DNA of 64,000 nucleotides from Betaproteobacteria bacterium (GTDB lineage: Bacteria; Pseudomonadota; Gammaproteobacteria; Burkholderiales; SG8-39). The stretch is from positions 1-64,000 of the forward strand of contig SHXR01000017.1 in NCBI GenBank assembly GCA_009693235.1. Direction: 5' to 3'. Position numbers and translations under genes: made by a program. Below the pieces are notes generated by a model. It searched no databases, had not been told where the DNA came from, and worked only from the letters and a program-made list of their open reading frames with translations. Shown here one piece after another: positions 49,588 through 58,160 of the stretch (position 1 is the stretch's first letter; each line of letters begins with the position of its first letter).

Positions 49588-49655
49588 GGGAATTCTCCTT
49601 GAGGGGCGGTAATGCTTGCCCGATGCCTGGGATCGGGTAAATCTTGTGGTCCTGC

Positions 49656-50666
49656 CTACGCCTTCATCTTCATCAGCTTCATCGCATTGCCAAAATAGAT
49701 TTTGCGCTTATCAGACTCCGATAAATGCAAATCCTCGATGGAGCGGATGCCCTCCCGAATGAACATCGGCCCGCCTTCCGGATCGAACGGGCAATCACTC
49801 GCGAAGACGACCTTATCGGCGCCGAAGAAATCGAGCCCACAGCGCAGCGCCGATGCGGAGCCGCCCAGCACGGTATCACCATAGAACATCTTGAAGTATT
49901 CGATCGGTGGTTTCGACATACGCTTCAGGATGGCGCCGTAGTCTTCATCGGCGGTACGCGACCCAAGCTGGGCCCATAGCGTTTCCGCACGCCCCGCGAA
50001 GTACGGAATCATGCCGCCGCAGTGATGGGTGATGAGCCGCATATTAGGCAGCTTATCCAGCATGCCCGAGAACACCATGCGCGCCAATGCCACGCTGGTT
50101 TCGAACGGCCAGCCAAGCACTTGCCAGATCTCGTATTTTGATTTCGCTTCGTTGACGTAGTCAGGGCGCGTCGCCGGTCGTGCCGGATGCATCCAGATCG
50201 GTAGATCATGGTGGTTGGTCGCGCGTTCAAAGACCGGGAAGAACTCCGGCTCATCCAGCGGGCGCCCGTTGACGTTCGACAATACCTGCACACCGCGTGC
50301 GCCCAGTTTTTCGATGGCACGATCCATCTCCTCCAGCGCGGCGGGCACATTGTTCATCGGCAGCGACGCGACGAACGCCGGAAATTTCTTCGGCCACTTG
50401 GCGCAAATCGCTGCCAACTCATCGTTAGCGATGCGCGCGAGTTCCGGCGAGAGGTCCGGGCCGCCCACCATCTCAGGCCCCGGCAAGGAGAGCGTTAGCA
50501 CCTGTTGCACGTCTGGCCATTGGTCCAACATCTGCACGCGTGATTCCATATCCCAGAGGATGCGAATGCTGGTCATGCGCTTCACGATGCCCGCGTCTTT
50601 CATGTGCTGTTTCATCAACTCCAGATAACGGGGCGTCATAACGTGATTGAAGATGTCGATCTTCAT
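49656..50666 (-). CDS. Amidohydrolase family protein (ACMSD/gamma-resorcylate decarboxylase-like)
   Basis: TIM-barrel amidohydrolase_2: LITHHCGGMIPYFAGR, FASDCPFDPEGGP. Confidence 0.88.
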   Translation of the reverse strand: MKIDIFNHVMTPRYLELMKQHMKDAGIVKRMTSIRILWDMESRVQMLDQWPDVQQVLTLSLPGPEMVGGPDLSPELARIANDELAAICAKWPKKFPAFVASLPMNNVPAALEEMDRAIEKLGARGVQVLSNVNGRPLDEPEFFPVFERATNHHDLPIWMHPARPATRPDYVNEAKSKYEIWQVLGWPFETSVALARMVFSGMLDKLPNMRLITHHCGGMIPYFAGRAETLWAQLGSRTADEDYGAILKRMSKPPIEYFKMFYGDTVLGGSASALRCGLDFFGADKVVFASDCPFDPEGGPMFIREGIRSIEDLHLSESDKRKIYFGNAMKLMKMKA

Positions 50667-50776
50667 GGTTTGCTTTCGGGGATGGGAGGTGGGATGGGAT
50701 ATCGTACCCGGGAGCTTGGCATCGACCGCCGCACGCTGTCAAACTCCACGTTTAACTCGTGAGAATGTGATCTTGC

Positions 50777-52438
50777 ATGGCAGATGCGCAGCGCACCAAC
50801 GTTCTGATTGCAGGAGGTGGACCAGCCGGCTTGATCACAGCCATTGAGCTTGGCCGGCGGGGTATCGGCTGCGTGTTGGTGGAAGACGATGCGGGCCCGC
50901 CCCAATTCCCCAAAGCGAACGCCACGACATCGCGCTCCATGGAGCACTACCGGCGTCTTGGCTTCGCCCCGGAAATTCGCGCGCTTGGCATGCCGGCCGA
51001 CTATTCACAAGACATCACTTATTTCACCCGGTATGGACACCACGAGATTGCACGCATCCGCGGGCGGTCGCGTCGTGAGGCGGAGACGGCGAGGGAGACA
51101 GCGCACTCCCGGTGGCCCACACCCGAACCTTTGCATCGCACGCAGCAGATGTACATTGAAGCGGTGCTCAAGCGCCAAGCCGAGCAATGGCCGGCCGTCG
51201 ATGTCAGGTTCGGTTGTCGCCTGATCGATTTTGCATCGGATGCTGAGGGCGTCACGGCACGGATCGAAGAGATTGCGACCGGGCGGATATCGATGCTTGG
51301 CAGCAAGTATCTGGTGGGATGTGACGGTCCGCGTTCGATTGTTCGCACCGCGCTTGGCATCGAATATCAGGGCTGGGCGAACGAAGCGCGGGATTTCATG
51401 GGCGGTCGCATGCTTGCCGCCTACCTGCGGGCGCCGGCGTTCTACGACATCACCCCTACTCGTCGCAGCTGGCAATATTGGTCGATCAACCGCGCTTGCC
51501 GGGCGTTCACCTGTGCGGTTGATGGCGAGGGGCTGTTCGTGTTTCACGCGCAGATGCCGCATGGTGCTGAGCCTTCCGAAACGTACGCTCGCGAGCTGAT
51601 TACGCAGGCAACCGGTCGAGAATTCCCGTTCGAGGTGATTGCGACCGCGACCTGGACCGCCGGATTCACGCTGGTCGCCGAGCGCTACACCGATTCGCAT
51701 CGGCGCGTTTTTCTCGCCGGCGATGCCGCCCACCTTTTTACGCCGACCGGTGGACAGGGCTACAACACTGCGGTCGACGCCGCCGCTAATCTTGGCTGGA
51801 AGCTTGCGGCGATGTGCCAGGGGTGGGGCGGTCCGCGGCTGTTGGCGAGCTATGAAACGGAACGCAAACCCATTGGCCATCGCAATACCGCGTTTGCGCG
51901 TGCGATGGCCGATTCAATTGGTCGCATGGCGTTACCGGCCGAACTCGAAGACGATTCCGCGGCCGGTGTGGCGGCGCGTGTGGCAATTGGCCAACAACTC
52001 ACTGATCATTGCAGCAGGGAATTCGATATACCCGGGATCCATTTTGGTGTGTTCTATGGTGGATCGCCGATCGTATGGACCGAGAAAGGTGCGGCGCCGG
52101 CGGATGATTGGCACCACTACACGCCGCATGCAACGCCGGGCGCGCGCGCACCGCATTGGTGGGTCGATGACGGCGTTTCGATCTTTGACCGCTTCGGCCG
52201 CGACTTCACGCTGCTTAAATTAGGATCGAGTCAACTCGATACACGGGCGATCGAAGGTGCCGCGGCCGCACGCAAGGTACCGCTCTCCATCGTGGCAATT
52301 CGCGGCAATGATGCGCGCGCTTTATATGCGGCAGATTTGGTGTTGATTCGGCCGGACCATCATGTTGCTTGGCGAGGCAACCGCGTAGCGGACGCGGAAC
52401 AATTGATGACGAGGGTAATCGGCGCAGTCGGTACGTGA
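50777..52438 (+). CDS. FAD-dependent monooxygenase (PheA/MhpA type)
   Basis: VLIAGGGPAGLITAIELGRRGI, RRVFLAGDAAHLFTPTGGQGYNTAVDAAANLGWKLA. Confidence 0.93.
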   Translation: MADAQRTNVLIAGGGPAGLITAIELGRRGIGCVLVEDDAGPPQFPKANATTSRSMEHYRRLGFAPEIRALGMPADYSQDITYFTRYGHHEIARIRGRSRREAETARETAHSRWPTPEPLHRTQQMYIEAVLKRQAEQWPAVDVRFGCRLIDFASDAEGVTARIEEIATGRISMLGSKYLVGCDGPRSIVRTALGIEYQGWANEARDFMGGRMLAAYLRAPAFYDITPTRRSWQYWSINRACRAFTCAVDGEGLFVFHAQMPHGAEPSETYARELITQATGREFPFEVIATATWTAGFTLVAERYTDSHRRVFLAGDAAHLFTPTGGQGYNTAVDAAANLGWKLAAMCQGWGGPRLLASYETERKPIGHRNTAFARAMADSIGRMALPAELEDDSAAGVAARVAIGQQLTDHCSREFDIPGIHFGVFYGGSPIVWTEKGAAPADDWHHYTPHATPGARAPHWWVDDGVSIFDRFGRDFTLLKLGSSQLDTRAIEGAAAARKVPLSIVAIRGNDARALYAADLVLIRPDHHVAWRGNRVADAEQLMTRVIGAVGT

Positions 52439-52595
52439 TCGCTGCGATGGGAATTAAGGAATCACTGAACGGCTCGGCCCTTCGTAATGGACTCAATATC
52501 TGAGCCGTGCCGCGACATTTTGCAACGGCGTCTTATTTACTCCGTTGCTTTGGCCCCAGGCTTCGTAGGTGAAATTTGCCGTCGTTATTGAATAG

Positions 52596-53134
52596 TCATG
52601 TCTCGGTCACTTCGACCATGCCGCCATGCAAGACATTCGATCCGGGTGCCGGGAGTGCGCCGGCACGCTCTAAGCTACTACGTGCGAGGCGCTCGGCCGC
52701 CGACTCTGGGGAGCGTAAGGTGCGTACGTCGCGCACCGTACCGCTGCCGTCAACGTGAAACTGCAGGACCACCACGGCTCTCAGGAGCGGCTGCAGGTCC
52801 CTTGCAACAACGCGGCCGGCATTCGATGAAAAGATATGGCGCGCGAGTGCCTGTTTGTACTCATCGAGCGTTTGTATGGGACGGGCGATGCGGGCTTTCC
52901 CGCCATCGCGACCGGCGGAATCGTCTTGAGATCCGGAGCGGGTTTCGCTTCCACCGCAGGTGGCACCGGTGCCGCCTGCGGCGTAACAGGTAGCTCTGGT
53001 GTCGGTGCCGGTGTCGCCGCGGGCATGGGCGGTGACGGTGGTGTCGGCGGCGTCAGTGCGAAGTGCTCGCAGGCGGCGAGTACCGAGGCTAACAACGTGC
53101 AGATGCAACGGATCTGCCAGTGGCGAGGGATCAT
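52596..53134 (-). pseudogene. Putative lipoprotein with TonB-like C-terminal domain, apparent -1 frameshift at 52896-52898
   Basis: LLASVLAAC lipobox plus Pro-rich linker in one frame; LQPLLRAVVVLQFHVDGSGTVRDVRTLRSPESAAERLARSSLERA in another; adding one A gives AGKARIARPIQTLDEYKQALARHIF. Confidence 0.7.
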
Positions 53135-53428
53135 ATTTTCGACTCGACGTCCAGATCGACATGAAGGCTGTCATTGAAAGGAAAGGCCCGGGCCGAGATC
53201 CCGTTTGCGATTCGACTTTCACCTGTCCAATGGATTCGCAAGTCTCCGCTCGCTACCGATGGAAACAAAGGGAATTCTTGCCACCGGTGCAACGGTGCTT
53301 TGAAATACGCAGACGCGCAATTTCACTGTTTCAGCCGGCGGGTTGGCCCGATCGCATCGGCATGCGTAGCGACCGCCGTGACGGGTCGATCGGTGCGAAA
53401 GAAAGCGGCGCGGTGATTCATATGCAAG

Positions 53429-56400
53429 ATGACCGCCCGAGTACAATCCAATCCGACAGCAGATGCGACAGGAGCCAACTCGTTGGCATGGTTACCCGAA
53501 CAGCCGACTGATGCTGCGCAAAGCGAGCGCGTGCCTCCGGCTACGCCTAAGGAATCCCTCGTCGGCCTCATCGATTACATCGAGCGCGTTGAGGGCCTGC
53601 TGAGGAAGCCTTCTTTTGTGGTGCCGGCTGAGTTCTACTGCGCGTATGAGGAAGAGCTGCACGGTTTGCCGGGCGTCGAATGCAACCTCACCAGTGAAGG
53701 CGACGAGCTTTGGTTGCGTGTCGCGCATTTGCAAGAAAGCGCGCCGCCTGCACTGCCCGAAGACTTGGCTGCTTGGGTCGTCATTTCGTCCCGACCCGAT
53801 CAACCGCCGGTCGTGCGCGATGCCATCACCAGTTCGTCGCGAACCGAATCAAGCGGCGGGAGCATGGTCAATCGGTCAGAGATCGCTGGGCTCGACGCAG
53901 CATTGGCACGCTATCTTGCGGCGTGGTCGGCTTGGGCCGATGAGGAGCGGCCGCGCCGATTGGCGATGACCGTCTACCACCAGCTGCAATACATACACCG
54001 GTTGATCGAATCGGAGGGCAGCGAGATGCCGCTTGAATTGGTCTGGGGTGTTGGCATTGCGCTTTGGAAGCATCCAAGTGGGCAGCACGTCGTCCATCCT
54101 ATCGTTACGATGCCGGTCGAATTGCGGGTGGACCGTCGCACCCTCGCTTTCGAGATCCGACCGCGCAATGCGGCGCCCGTGTTGGCAGCGGAGCCCTTTG
54201 ATGTACTTGGAGTGCGGGGGCTTCCTGAGCTCGAAGAGGCATGGCGCACGCAGCAAACGCGCGCCGAAGGCGGCATTCTCCCGTTTCAATCGAATACCTT
54301 TGAGCCGATCCTGCGCGCGGCGATCGCACAGTTCGATCCGGCGGGTCGCTACTGGCCGGATGTAAGCGCCGATCGCACCCTTCCCGATCGCACCGAACAG
54401 CTGACCGTCACCGACACATGGGTTATCTTCGCGCGTCGCCGATCACCGAATTTTCTGATCGATGATTTGCAGCGCCTTCGTGCCAGCGTTGCGGCGGCAT
54501 CCGAGCTGCCGCGCGGGGCCGCGATGCTCGTCTCGGCGCATGATGACGTCGTCCGCGACAAACAGCCGATCCATTTCCGTGGCCTTTCCTATACCGGGTT
54601 CACCGGGGAAGCCACTGCGCAGGGAACGGCGCTCCGCGAGTTGTACTTTCCAAAGCCTTACAACGATGAGCAGGTATCCATCGTGCAAAAGCTGGAAAGT
54701 GCCGATGGCGTGGTGGTGCAAGGACCACCCGGGACCGGCAAGACCCACACGATCGCCAATATTATTTGCCACTACCTGGCAAATGGACGCCGCGTCTTGG
54801 TGACGTCCGAGGGTGTGCCCGCGCTGGCCGCCCTGCACGACCATATCCCCGATGGGGTGCGCTCCCTCGCCGTGTCGTTGTTGACCGATGAAAAAGACGG
54901 CATGCGGCAATTTGAGCAATCCGTGCAAAGCATCGCCACGAATATCGCGCAGCTGGATCCTCTTGAACTCGAGCGCGAAATCACTGCGCTCTCGGTGCGC
55001 ATCGAAGATTTGCATACGCGGCTTGCGACGGTTGATCGGGAGATCTCACGCTGGGCCAGGTTGCATCTACGGCGGGTGAGTTTCCAGGGCTGCGAAATGT
55101 TGCCCGACGAATTGGCACGTCATGTCTTTGAGCGGCGCGGCGAGTTCGAATGGCTGACCGATCGTCTGAGCGCGCAGGGCACCGACCCGAAATTTTCAGA
55201 TGCCGACATTGGCTCGGCACGGAAAGCGCGGCTCGTCTTAGGCGCGGATGTCGCCTATGTGGGCATCGAATTGCCGCCACTCGATGGCCTGCCTTCGAGC
55301 GCCGCGATGGGTGCTTTGCATGATGATGTGCTGCAGAGTCGTCAATTGGCCACCCGCATGCGCGCGGAGCGAACGCCGCCACTGATCAACGCCCGGCCCG
55401 ACACCTACCAGCACGCGGCCGAGCTGCTCGCTTTCGCGGAGGAAATCATCGCGCGCCATCAAGCCATCTTTGGCGATGGAAATGCCGGCGCGAAGGCCGC
55501 GTATACGAGTTATCGCGACGCCCGCGCTGACGCCGTTAAACGCCTCGACGACCTCCTTGCGGCGATCGTGCGGATTGATACGGCGCGCCGGGTCTTCGTC
55601 GAGCGTCCGGTCGAAATTCCAGACGATGCCGAAGTCGACGCCGAGTTCGTCGATGCGGTGGCGCGCGGTGCGATCGGTAAGAATCCACTCGGCCTCGTTC
55701 GATTCGGCAAAGGGCACCTCAAGCTGAAGTTGGAAAGCGTGCGATCGGGCGGCCTGCAGGCACGCACCGCGGCCGATTGGCAACATGCGCATGCGTGGGT
55801 CCACTGCTTGAAAGATGCGCGAACGGTCGTTGCGCAATGGAATTCCACCGCTCGCGAAATTGGGTTGACGCTGATCGATCCGGCGCCGCATGAAATGTTG
55901 CGCCGCCTGGCGAACGAGGGCGAGCAGCTTGCCAAGGTGAAAGACATTGCGACCGACCGTGAGCCGCGCCTCGAAGCACTGGTGCGGCAGGTATTTGGTC
56001 CGGAAGTGCGATCGCGGGGAATGGGCGAAGCGCGCGATGCATTTGAACGGGTCGCGGCAATCGTCAAAAGCCACTTGGAACGTCATCGCCTGGCCGGTGC
56101 AATCGCCCAACTCAATGAACTTCTCGATCTATCCATGGGTCGCGGTGGCGCGATCAGCGCATCGATGCGTGCGTTTCTCGCCAATGAATTGGGTAAGGAA
56201 AGCCTCACTGCCTCGCAGGCGAGCGAGCGCTGGTCGCAGCTGCGTGCAGAATTACGCAGGCTGGTCGGGCTGCGTCCGGCATTGCTGCGCGTCGAACGCG
56301 TTGCCAATCTCGTCGCGGAATCGGGTGCCATGCATTGGGCGGACCATCTTCGTACCGTTCCCGCATTGGACGGGCGCGATCCGTGGACACCGACCAACTG

Positions 56401-58093
56401 GCGGCAAGCCTGGCAATGGCGGCAAATCTTTACGCTGCTGGAGACGATCGATGGACGCGAGCCGCTCGCCCGGTTGCAGAAAATACGGGGCGAAATCGAA
56501 GAGGATCTGGCGCGTTCCTATCAACGTCTGGTGGAGAAAAGGACCTGGCTGCAGGTGAGCCGCAATTCATCCGATGCGGTGAAGTCCGCGCTGCAGGCTT
56601 ACCTGAATGCGGTGCTGCATATTGGCCGCGGCGCCGGCATTCGCGCCAATCGGTATCGGAACGAAGCGCGCCGTGCGATGCAGGAGGCCAATCGGGCGGT
56701 ACCCTGCTGGATCATGCCGCATTGGCGTGTCTCGGAGACGCTGCCGGCAGACCTCGGCAAATTCGATCTCGTCATCGTCGATGAAGCGAGTCAATCGAAT
56801 CTGTGGGCCTTGCCTTCGCTCTTGCGCGGCGCAAAGATCCTGATTGTCGGTGACGAGAAGCAGGTGGCGCCCGAGAGCGTCGGTGTTGGTGAGGAGCGGA
56901 TCGTCGATTTGAAGAGTCGCTTTTTGGCCGGTCAGGTGTATGCCGACCAGATGACGCCGGAAAAATCCCTCTACGATCTTGCGCGCGTGGCGTTCGCCGG
57001 CAACATGGTGATGCTCCGTGAGCATTTCCGCTGCGTAGCGCCGATCATCGAATTTTCGCGGCGCGAGTTCTATGGCGATGCGCTCAGGCCCTTGCGCGTG
57101 CCGCGGGTATCTGAGCGTCTCGATCCGCCGTTGATCGACGTGCTGGTGCGTGGCGCGACCCGGCGCGGCGCGGTGAATGACGCCGAAGCGCGCGCGATCG
57201 TCGATGAGATCAAATCGATTCTTGCCGATTCCCGTTGCGCCGGCCGCACCATCGGCGTCGTATCGTTGCTTGGCATCGAGCAGGCCCATTGCATTTTCGA
57301 TTTGATTCGGGCGTGTATTTCACCTGCGGAAATCGTGGCGCGCCAAATCACGGTGGGCGATGCGAGAACTTTTCAAGGCAAGGAGCGCGACATCATGCTG
57401 CTGTCGATGGTGGCGACCCCGGACCAGAAAATAACCTCGGCCGGGCCCACATTCGAGCAGCGCTTCAATGTTGCGGCCAGTCGAGCGCGTGACCGCATGG
57501 TGTTGTTCCGATCGGTTGAATTGTGTGACCTCTCGACCCTTGATTTGAAAGCCCGGCTCATCGAGCATTTTGCGATGCCGTACAAGGAGGCGGCGCCCGC
57601 CGCCAGGGCGCTGCGCGACTTTTGCGAGACGACCTTCGAACGGGAACTGTTCGACGCCCTGTCGGAGATCGGCTATCGCGTGTGGCCGCAGGTGCGCGCG
57701 GGCGTGCATGCCATTGATCTGGTCGTCGAAGGGGATGGCGATCGGCGCCTCGCCATTGAATGCGACGGCGATCGACACCAGGCCGTCGATTCTTGGGCGC
57801 TCGACATGAGCAGGCAGCGGGTGCTGGAGCGTGCCGGCTGGACATTCTGGCGCTGTTTTGCATCGAGCTTCACGTTGCATCGAGACACCACGCTGAAAGA
57901 CCTGGTTGCGCTCCTTAATGCGATGAAGATCGGACCGATCGGTGCGGTGCATAGTGGACCGATGAGCTATACCGAACATCGCGAGGTGACCGCGGTCCCG
58001 CAGGTAGCGCAGAGCGCCCCGCTGCGCTACCTGCTATTGCGCGCCATACCGAGGGAAGGAATGCTCAAGCCACCTTGGCACGGCGAAGATTGA
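53429..58093 (+). CDS. Large SF1 (AAA_11/AAA_12-type) helicase with C-terminal PD-(D/E)XK nuclease domain (MTES_1575/DUF559-like)
   Basis: Walker A GPPGTGKT (54722-54745), Walker B IVDEAS (from about 56774), motif V/VI DARTFQGKERDIML and RFNVAASRARDRMV, C-terminal IDLVVEG...LAIECDGDRH...DMSRQRVLERAGWTFWRC. Confidence 0.9.
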   Translation: MTARVQSNPTADATGANSLAWLPEQPTDAAQSERVPPATPKESLVGLIDYIERVEGLLRKPSFVVPAEFYCAYEEELHGLPGVECNLTSEGDELWLRVAHLQESAPPALPEDLAAWVVISSRPDQPPVVRDAITSSSRTESSGGSMVNRSEIAGLDAALARYLAAWSAWADEERPRRLAMTVYHQLQYIHRLIESEGSEMPLELVWGVGIALWKHPSGQHVVHPIVTMPVELRVDRRTLAFEIRPRNAAPVLAAEPFDVLGVRGLPELEEAWRTQQTRAEGGILPFQSNTFEPILRAAIAQFDPAGRYWPDVSADRTLPDRTEQLTVTDTWVIFARRRSPNFLIDDLQRLRASVAAASELPRGAAMLVSAHDDVVRDKQPIHFRGLSYTGFTGEATAQGTALRELYFPKPYNDEQVSIVQKLESADGVVVQGPPGTGKTHTIANIICHYLANGRRVLVTSEGVPALAALHDHIPDGVRSLAVSLLTDEKDGMRQFEQSVQSIATNIAQLDPLELEREITALSVRIEDLHTRLATVDREISRWARLHLRRVSFQGCEMLPDELARHVFERRGEFEWLTDRLSAQGTDPKFSDADIGSARKARLVLGADVAYVGIELPPLDGLPSSAAMGALHDDVLQSRQLATRMRAERTPPLINARPDTYQHAAELLAFAEEIIARHQAIFGDGNAGAKAAYTSYRDARADAVKRLDDLLAAIVRIDTARRVFVERPVEIPDDAEVDAEFVDAVARGAIGKNPLGLVRFGKGHLKLKLESVRSGGLQARTAADWQHAHAWVHCLKDARTVVAQWNSTAREIGLTLIDPAPHEMLRRLANEGEQLAKVKDIATDREPRLEALVRQVFGPEVRSRGMGEARDAFERVAAIVKSHLERHRLAGAIAQLNELLDLSMGRGGAISASMRAFLANELGKESLTASQASERWSQLRAELRRLVGLRPALLRVERVANLVAESGAMHWADHLRTVPALDGRDPWTPTNWRQAWQWRQIFTLLETIDGREPLARLQKIRGEIEEDLARSYQRLVEKRTWLQVSRNSSDAVKSALQAYLNAVLHIGRGAGIRANRYRNEARRAMQEANRAVPCWIMPHWRVSETLPADLGKFDLVIVDEASQSNLWALPSLLRGAKILIVGDEKQVAPESVGVGEERIVDLKSRFLAGQVYADQMTPEKSLYDLARVAFAGNMVMLREHFRCVAPIIEFSRREFYGDALRPLRVPRVSERLDPPLIDVLVRGATRRGAVNDAEARAIVDEIKSILADSRCAGRTIGVVSLLGIEQAHCIFDLIRACISPAEIVARQITVGDARTFQGKERDIMLLSMVATPDQKITSAGPTFEQRFNVAASRARDRMVLFRSVELCDLSTLDLKARLIEHFAMPYKEAAPAARALRDFCETTFERELFDALSEIGYRVWPQVRAGVHAIDLVVEGDGDRRLAIECDGDRHQAVDSWALDMSRQRVLERAGWTFWRCFASSFTLHRDTTLKDLVALLNAMKIGPIGAVHSGPMSYTEHREVTAVPQVAQSAPLRYLLLRAIPREGMLKPPWHGED

Positions 58094-58160
58094 ATCGTCG
58101 CCAGTTGAGAAAATACTCGCAAGGTGCCAAACCCCGCCAGCCGCGCAGGATGACGGGATA

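Follow-up and report, generated by a model that had tools for sequence, protein, structure and literature searches.

A divergent UPF1-like helicase-nuclease, settled among metabolic genes, as a putative single-gene defence protein

Why should a very large helicase fused to a nuclease be encoded on its own among the metabolic genes of a betaproteobacterium? The window considered here, a stretch of 64,000 nucleotides from a Betaproteobacteria bacterium contig, carries on its forward strand one such gene, P0001 (53429-58093), whose 1554-amino-acid product is a UPF1-like SF1 helicase joined to an MTES_1575 (Vsr-like) nuclease. The original prediction had read it as a one-gene defence system. In our view P0001 is probably a single-gene defence protein that targets nucleic acids, a reading drawn from sequence comparison; its relatives are mobile and linked to defence, but its nuclease signature is not fully canonical and the copy in the window holds the same position in both species sequenced from its genus and is not recent.

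In regard to protein architecture, most of what had been foreseen is borne out. The reading frame is uninterrupted over 1554 codons, and an intact orthologue exists in the sister species G001; the opposite strand, read in one register, is broken by stops. P0001 is single-copy in its genome. Its translation may start up to about 38 codons further downstream, because residues 1-28 are disordered in the structural model and most homologues begin near residue 39. The Walker A motif GPPGTGKT occupies residues 432-439 (54722-54745), with a Pfam AAA_11 match around it at 411-462, and Walker B, VIVDEASQ (56771-56794; D1118 and E1119), follows 680 residues past K438, close to the spacing of about 690 originally described. 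Motifs III-VI lie in the second RecA-like domain, identified by Pfam and by fold (AAA_12, residues 1190-1359, 56996-57505), and include the anticipated motifs V (DARTFQGKERD) and VI (NVAASRARDRM); in an alignment of homologues, both Walker motifs and motifs V and VI are invariant or nearly so. The insert between motifs I and II, which had looked helical from its sequence, is modelled by AF2 as about 500 residues (approximately 510-1030, 54956-56518) of almost entirely helical structure with long antiparallel helices (mean pLDDT 84.8). A Foldseek search with the helicase part, one of the checks initially proposed, returned SETX (2.7e-11), IGHMBP2, UPF1, Sen1 and Dna2, each at probability 1.00, and the profile comparison with UPF1 gave 1.8e-23. 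P0001 thus carries a UPF1-like SF1 helicase core, as established by its motifs and its UPF1/Dna2-type fold, and the helicase-nuclease architecture is confirmed far beyond chance.

The C-terminal nuclease had been expected to be of the MTES_1575/DUF559 type. Residues 1403-1495 (57635-57913) match MTES_1575 (PF18741) at 91.4 bits (E 4e-26; Pfam gathering cut-off 38.2 bits); the DUF559 match is sub-threshold. The active-site pattern, whose loss had been raised as a possible objection, is not fully canonical. D1430, E1444 and D1446 are retained, but the His of the DGDxxH pattern, which 26 of 28 homologues carry, is replaced in P0001 by Gln1451, with a His one residue before. By pattern alignment, the replaced His would be the counterpart of the catalytic His of Vsr; a sequence search with the nuclease domain alone found no solved Vsr relative. 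Gln or Glu also stands at this position in six other homologues (G124, G159, G232, G241, G291 and L047), and one separate clade within the order combines this substitution with intact acidic residues; the nearest relatives outside, from Variovorax VAI-C and G193, have the canonical pattern. Because such relatives keep their acidic residues, the change from His to Gln is by itself no demonstration of lost activity. We considered a dead nuclease in the window copy and did not adopt it, given this recurrence and the purifying selection on the domain.

The sister genus, g9, presents a further step in this series. One member carries D1430N and two carry E1444A, and the His is absent in all three, so that these orthologues appear from their sequences to be nuclease-dead helicases. 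The three genes (L029, L030 and L027, from G030, G028 and G029) share one common locus and keep all helicase motifs. Because of the acidic residues lost in this sister genus, together with the His replacement in P0001 itself, nuclease activity in the latter is a prediction.

The N-terminal region, residues 1-400 (53429-54628), had been described as matching no recognisable family, and this description holds in part. Pfam gave no match there, and Foldseek found nothing in the PDB below E 0.2; one viral predicted AAA protein matched at 9e-7. The structural model of the region is nevertheless ordered (pLDDT 80.6) and comprises a 46-residue helix at 149-194 and a beta-rich domain at about 200-250. 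In profile-profile comparison of N-terminal regions only, residues 204-252 align weakly, over 46-47 columns, with the latter half of DUF4011. The score was 29.3 with three sequences, against a maximum of 17.3 in 20 shuffles, and 22.2 with a different sequence set, against a maximum of 18.4 in 60 shuffles. Because of this weak match the N-terminus may be a diverged form of a known module; the comparison is suggestive, not proof, of a far-diverged DUF4011-type module as in PDC-S37 and ProA.

Turning to the locus, P0001 belongs to an 8.57-kb segment (49588-58160) that also encodes an amidohydrolase, an FAD monooxygenase and a TonB-like protein, and that is flanked by galactarate dehydratase-like and dihydroxy-acid dehydratase genes. 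The segment is accessory, since in related genera the two dehydratase genes nearly adjoin: in four genomes (G015, G019, G045 and G056) they lie 36-115 bp apart and the segment is absent. In other genera 1-2.7 kb separates the pair and holds transporter-like ORFs, as judged by sequence only. The interval therefore varies by genus among nothing, transporter-like ORFs and the four-gene segment, and is possibly an insertion hotspot. The neighbours checked on both sides of P0001 are metabolic, apart from the weak TonB-like ORF and some ORFs without a family match, and no defence, toxin or mobile gene was found among them, in agreement with the solitary setting originally described. A promoter scan upstream of P0001 returned nothing.

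This segment is also old, because the arrangement is shared with the sister species and the divergence of P0001 falls in the range of the neighbouring genes. The 1520-residue G001 orthologue, in the same place, is 86% identical to P0001, with a dS of 0.745 compared with 0.48-0.83 for flanking genes and an overall dN/dS of 0.109. The GC3 of P0001 is 0.70, and that of neighbouring genes 0.69-0.73. Recent horizontal arrival in the window genome is rejected on these grounds of divergence and composition. In its genus P0001 is a settled chromosomal copy under purifying selection, a vertical retention that is also compatible with a cellular role.

Beyond the genus the picture is one of patchy occurrence. 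A scan of a genome collection found at least 374 relatives; among the matches listed, those most similar to P0001 form a group with 36-49% identity across almost the full length, drawn from Proteobacteria, Hymenobacter and a Chlorobiaceae metagenome-assembled genome, and more distant relatives come from Bacillota, Actinomycetota and Planctomycetota. Near-full-length copies are present in 22 plasmid records, and relatives in six viral contigs. Within the GTDB family of the window, any match at all occurs in 15 of 98 genomes, a close relative in eight of them (in four genera), and most genera of the family lack the gene. Uniform syntenic conservation across the order had been named in advance as evidence that would count against a defence role, and it was not found: a strong match occurs in 24 of 300 genomes and 14 of 140 genera, and a housekeeping gene of the order is rejected on the same count. 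The tree of homologues mixes phyla and cuts across taxonomy. Members from the window's family fall into separate clades: one holds the window copy and g9, another joins G010 to a viral contig, and a third unites G090, Chromobacterium and a Variovorax plasmid. Such a pattern amounts to horizontal spread. The Rhizorhabdus plasmid pDC01 (L175, 9686-17148) carries a homologue broken up by an IS1380 transposase gene.

The neighbourhoods of homologues, whose inspection the original prediction had recommended, lend it partial support. Defence genes occur in eight independent contexts out of about 25 viewed, a raw count, but about two-thirds of the distinct contexts contain no recognisable defence gene, most of these judged by start sequence only. 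On two Acinetobacter plasmids (L127 and L128) the homologue directly follows brxL of a complete type I BREX operon, on the same strand and after a 64-nt gap, making it a candidate BREX accessory nuclease. This arrangement fits a 2026 survey that names PD-(D/E)XK nucleases as the accessory effectors found most often at BREX loci (PMC12839542). In Chromobacterium the homologue lies about 120 nt after JetC-JetD, one Variovorax plasmid has it near a Wadjet JetC, and another has PDC-S14 beside it. Three sphingomonad plasmids carry a methyltransferase and a type III-like restriction endonuclease, followed by the homologue. Within the window's own family, G011 encodes a CBASS cyclase, a 2TM effector and a type II methylase (L031, 14408-17004) beside a homologue that is split across contig ends. 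On a viral contig its neighbours are type I methylases and a serine recombinase, and in G193 it adjoins a type ISP restriction-modification gene and an integrase. HipA or other toxin-like genes are adjacent in two further contexts. A DUF2924 gene and a large serine recombinase gene recur near homologues on a viral contig (L117, 3187-4988) and an unrelated chromosome (L164, 5246-7143), possibly as a carrier element of the helicase-nuclease gene.

The settled position of the window copy lends itself to another explanation, in which a once-mobile defence protein has been domesticated as a housekeeping helicase for DNA repair or RNA surveillance, its nuclease altered or dispensable. The shared locus and neighbour-like dS in both species of the genus are consistent with this idea, as are the helicase core, which has the lowest dN/dS in the protein (0.047, compared with 0.16 for the N-terminus), the loss of the His in the window's clade, and the loss of acidic residues in the three g9 genomes, which also have the gene at a common locus. 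Yet the nuclease domain is under constraint as strong as the rest (dN/dS 0.096), its three acidic residues are intact, and the same Gln or Glu recurs in a separate clade whose sites are otherwise preserved; the absence of the gene from most genera of the family also argues against domestication, which we consider unlikely. The changes in the active site in the window clade and g9 might instead mark a decaying relic without present function, but a full-length ORF in both species and a dN/dS of 0.11 had already made that reading unlikely, and we give it very little credence.

Alternatively, the protein may be carried mainly by mobile elements as a weapon against plasmids or other rival elements, and not against phages. 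Wadjet, an anti-plasmid system, is a frequent partner, copies reside on plasmids and viral contigs as described above, and relaxase-like (LPD7) and recombinase genes lie near the homologues in G180 and G234. However, homologues are equally found next to BREX and restriction systems, whose targets are phages, and no element genes are found near the window copy; we judge such competition between elements to be still less probable than domestication.

If P0001 is a defence protein, its domains suggest how it might work. The N-terminal region would recognise invader nucleic acid or gate access to it, and the helicase would load on single-stranded stretches of phage or plasmid DNA that is replicating, recombining or uncapped, or less likely of RNA, and translocate using ATP. 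The long helical insert could couple this movement to the C-terminal Vsr-like nuclease, which would then cut the bound strand or duplex. UPF1-like helicases act on DNA and RNA, and Vsr-type domains cut DNA; because of the latter, and because the partner systems are DNA-based, DNA seems the more plausible target. Hachiman (PMC12278908) and Druantia III (PMC13192584) provide working precedents for helicase-nuclease defences that respond to damaged or single-stranded-containing DNA. In many relatives the helicase-nuclease may supplement BREX, Wadjet, CBASS or restriction-modification as an additional layer. A more ambitious proposal, which we offer tentatively and regard as rather doubtful, is that the clade constitutes a distinct immune system, encoded by a single gene and equipped with a recognition domain of its own, which has been recruited repeatedly as backup to BREX, Wadjet, CBASS and restriction, and that in two genera it has settled in the chromosome as a resident helicase, with its nuclease undergoing alteration or loss.

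These findings matter for annotation as well as mechanism. None of the curated models we used covers P0001 over its full length, and near-full-length relatives occur in about 8% of the sampled genomes of the order, in addition to plasmids and viral contigs; thus, an abundant defence gene probably goes unrecognised in genome annotation. Furthermore, the Acinetobacter homologue linked to BREX and the naturally occurring series of active sites (intact, His replaced by Gln or Glu, acidic residues lost) make the contributions of cutting and of translocation alone directly testable.

How, then, does P0001 relate to systems that already have names? Among PADLOC models the best is PDC-S37, a single-gene phage defence candidate, at 181 bits (E 8e-54), far from the 1140-1678 bits of the full-length matches in the same class that we used as reference. 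The best NCBIfam model is NF058533, 'anti-phage protein ProA' (E 1.6e-56, residues 641-1500), where P0001 scores 191.6 bits against a curated cut-off of 1500; for Hhe (NF042953), a DUF4011 anti-phage protein, it scores 122.5 bits against 2000. The PDC-S37 and ProA models overlap over most of their length, and our literature searches found no paper describing ProA. PDC-S37 and P0001 share, in order, an N-terminal region, Walker A, a long insert, Walker B, the second RecA-like domain and MTES_1575. Unlike P0001, in which Pfam detects neither domain, PDC-S37 has recognisable DUF4011 and DUF3320, placed in front and at the end, respectively, in the match from G390 (L177). ProA differs by DUF4011 and about 350 extra residues in front, and Hhe shares the helicase RecA2 and nuclease half but is set apart by the DUF4011 that P0001 does not match. 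The founding MTES_1575 protein, which gives the nuclease family its name, likewise combines an SF-I helicase with a Vsr-type REase but has additional HEPN, transglutaminase and wHTH (DUF3320) domains (PMC3710099). CoCoNuT CnuH is also a UPF1-like SF1 helicase in which Walker A is followed by a large helical insert, and in type III-B it is fused to a Vsr-like nuclease (PMC11090510). CoCoNuT systems, however, are defined with McrB/McrC partners (CnuB/CnuC), and no such McrBC-like genes are among the P0001 neighbours checked, which sets it outside type III-B; an McrBC-like pair occurs with only one annotated relative, 7-12 kb downstream on a Sphingobium plasmid. By sequence, P0001 is therefore best described as a divergent, unnamed relative of PDC-S37, ProA and Hhe that shares their helicase-nuclease half.
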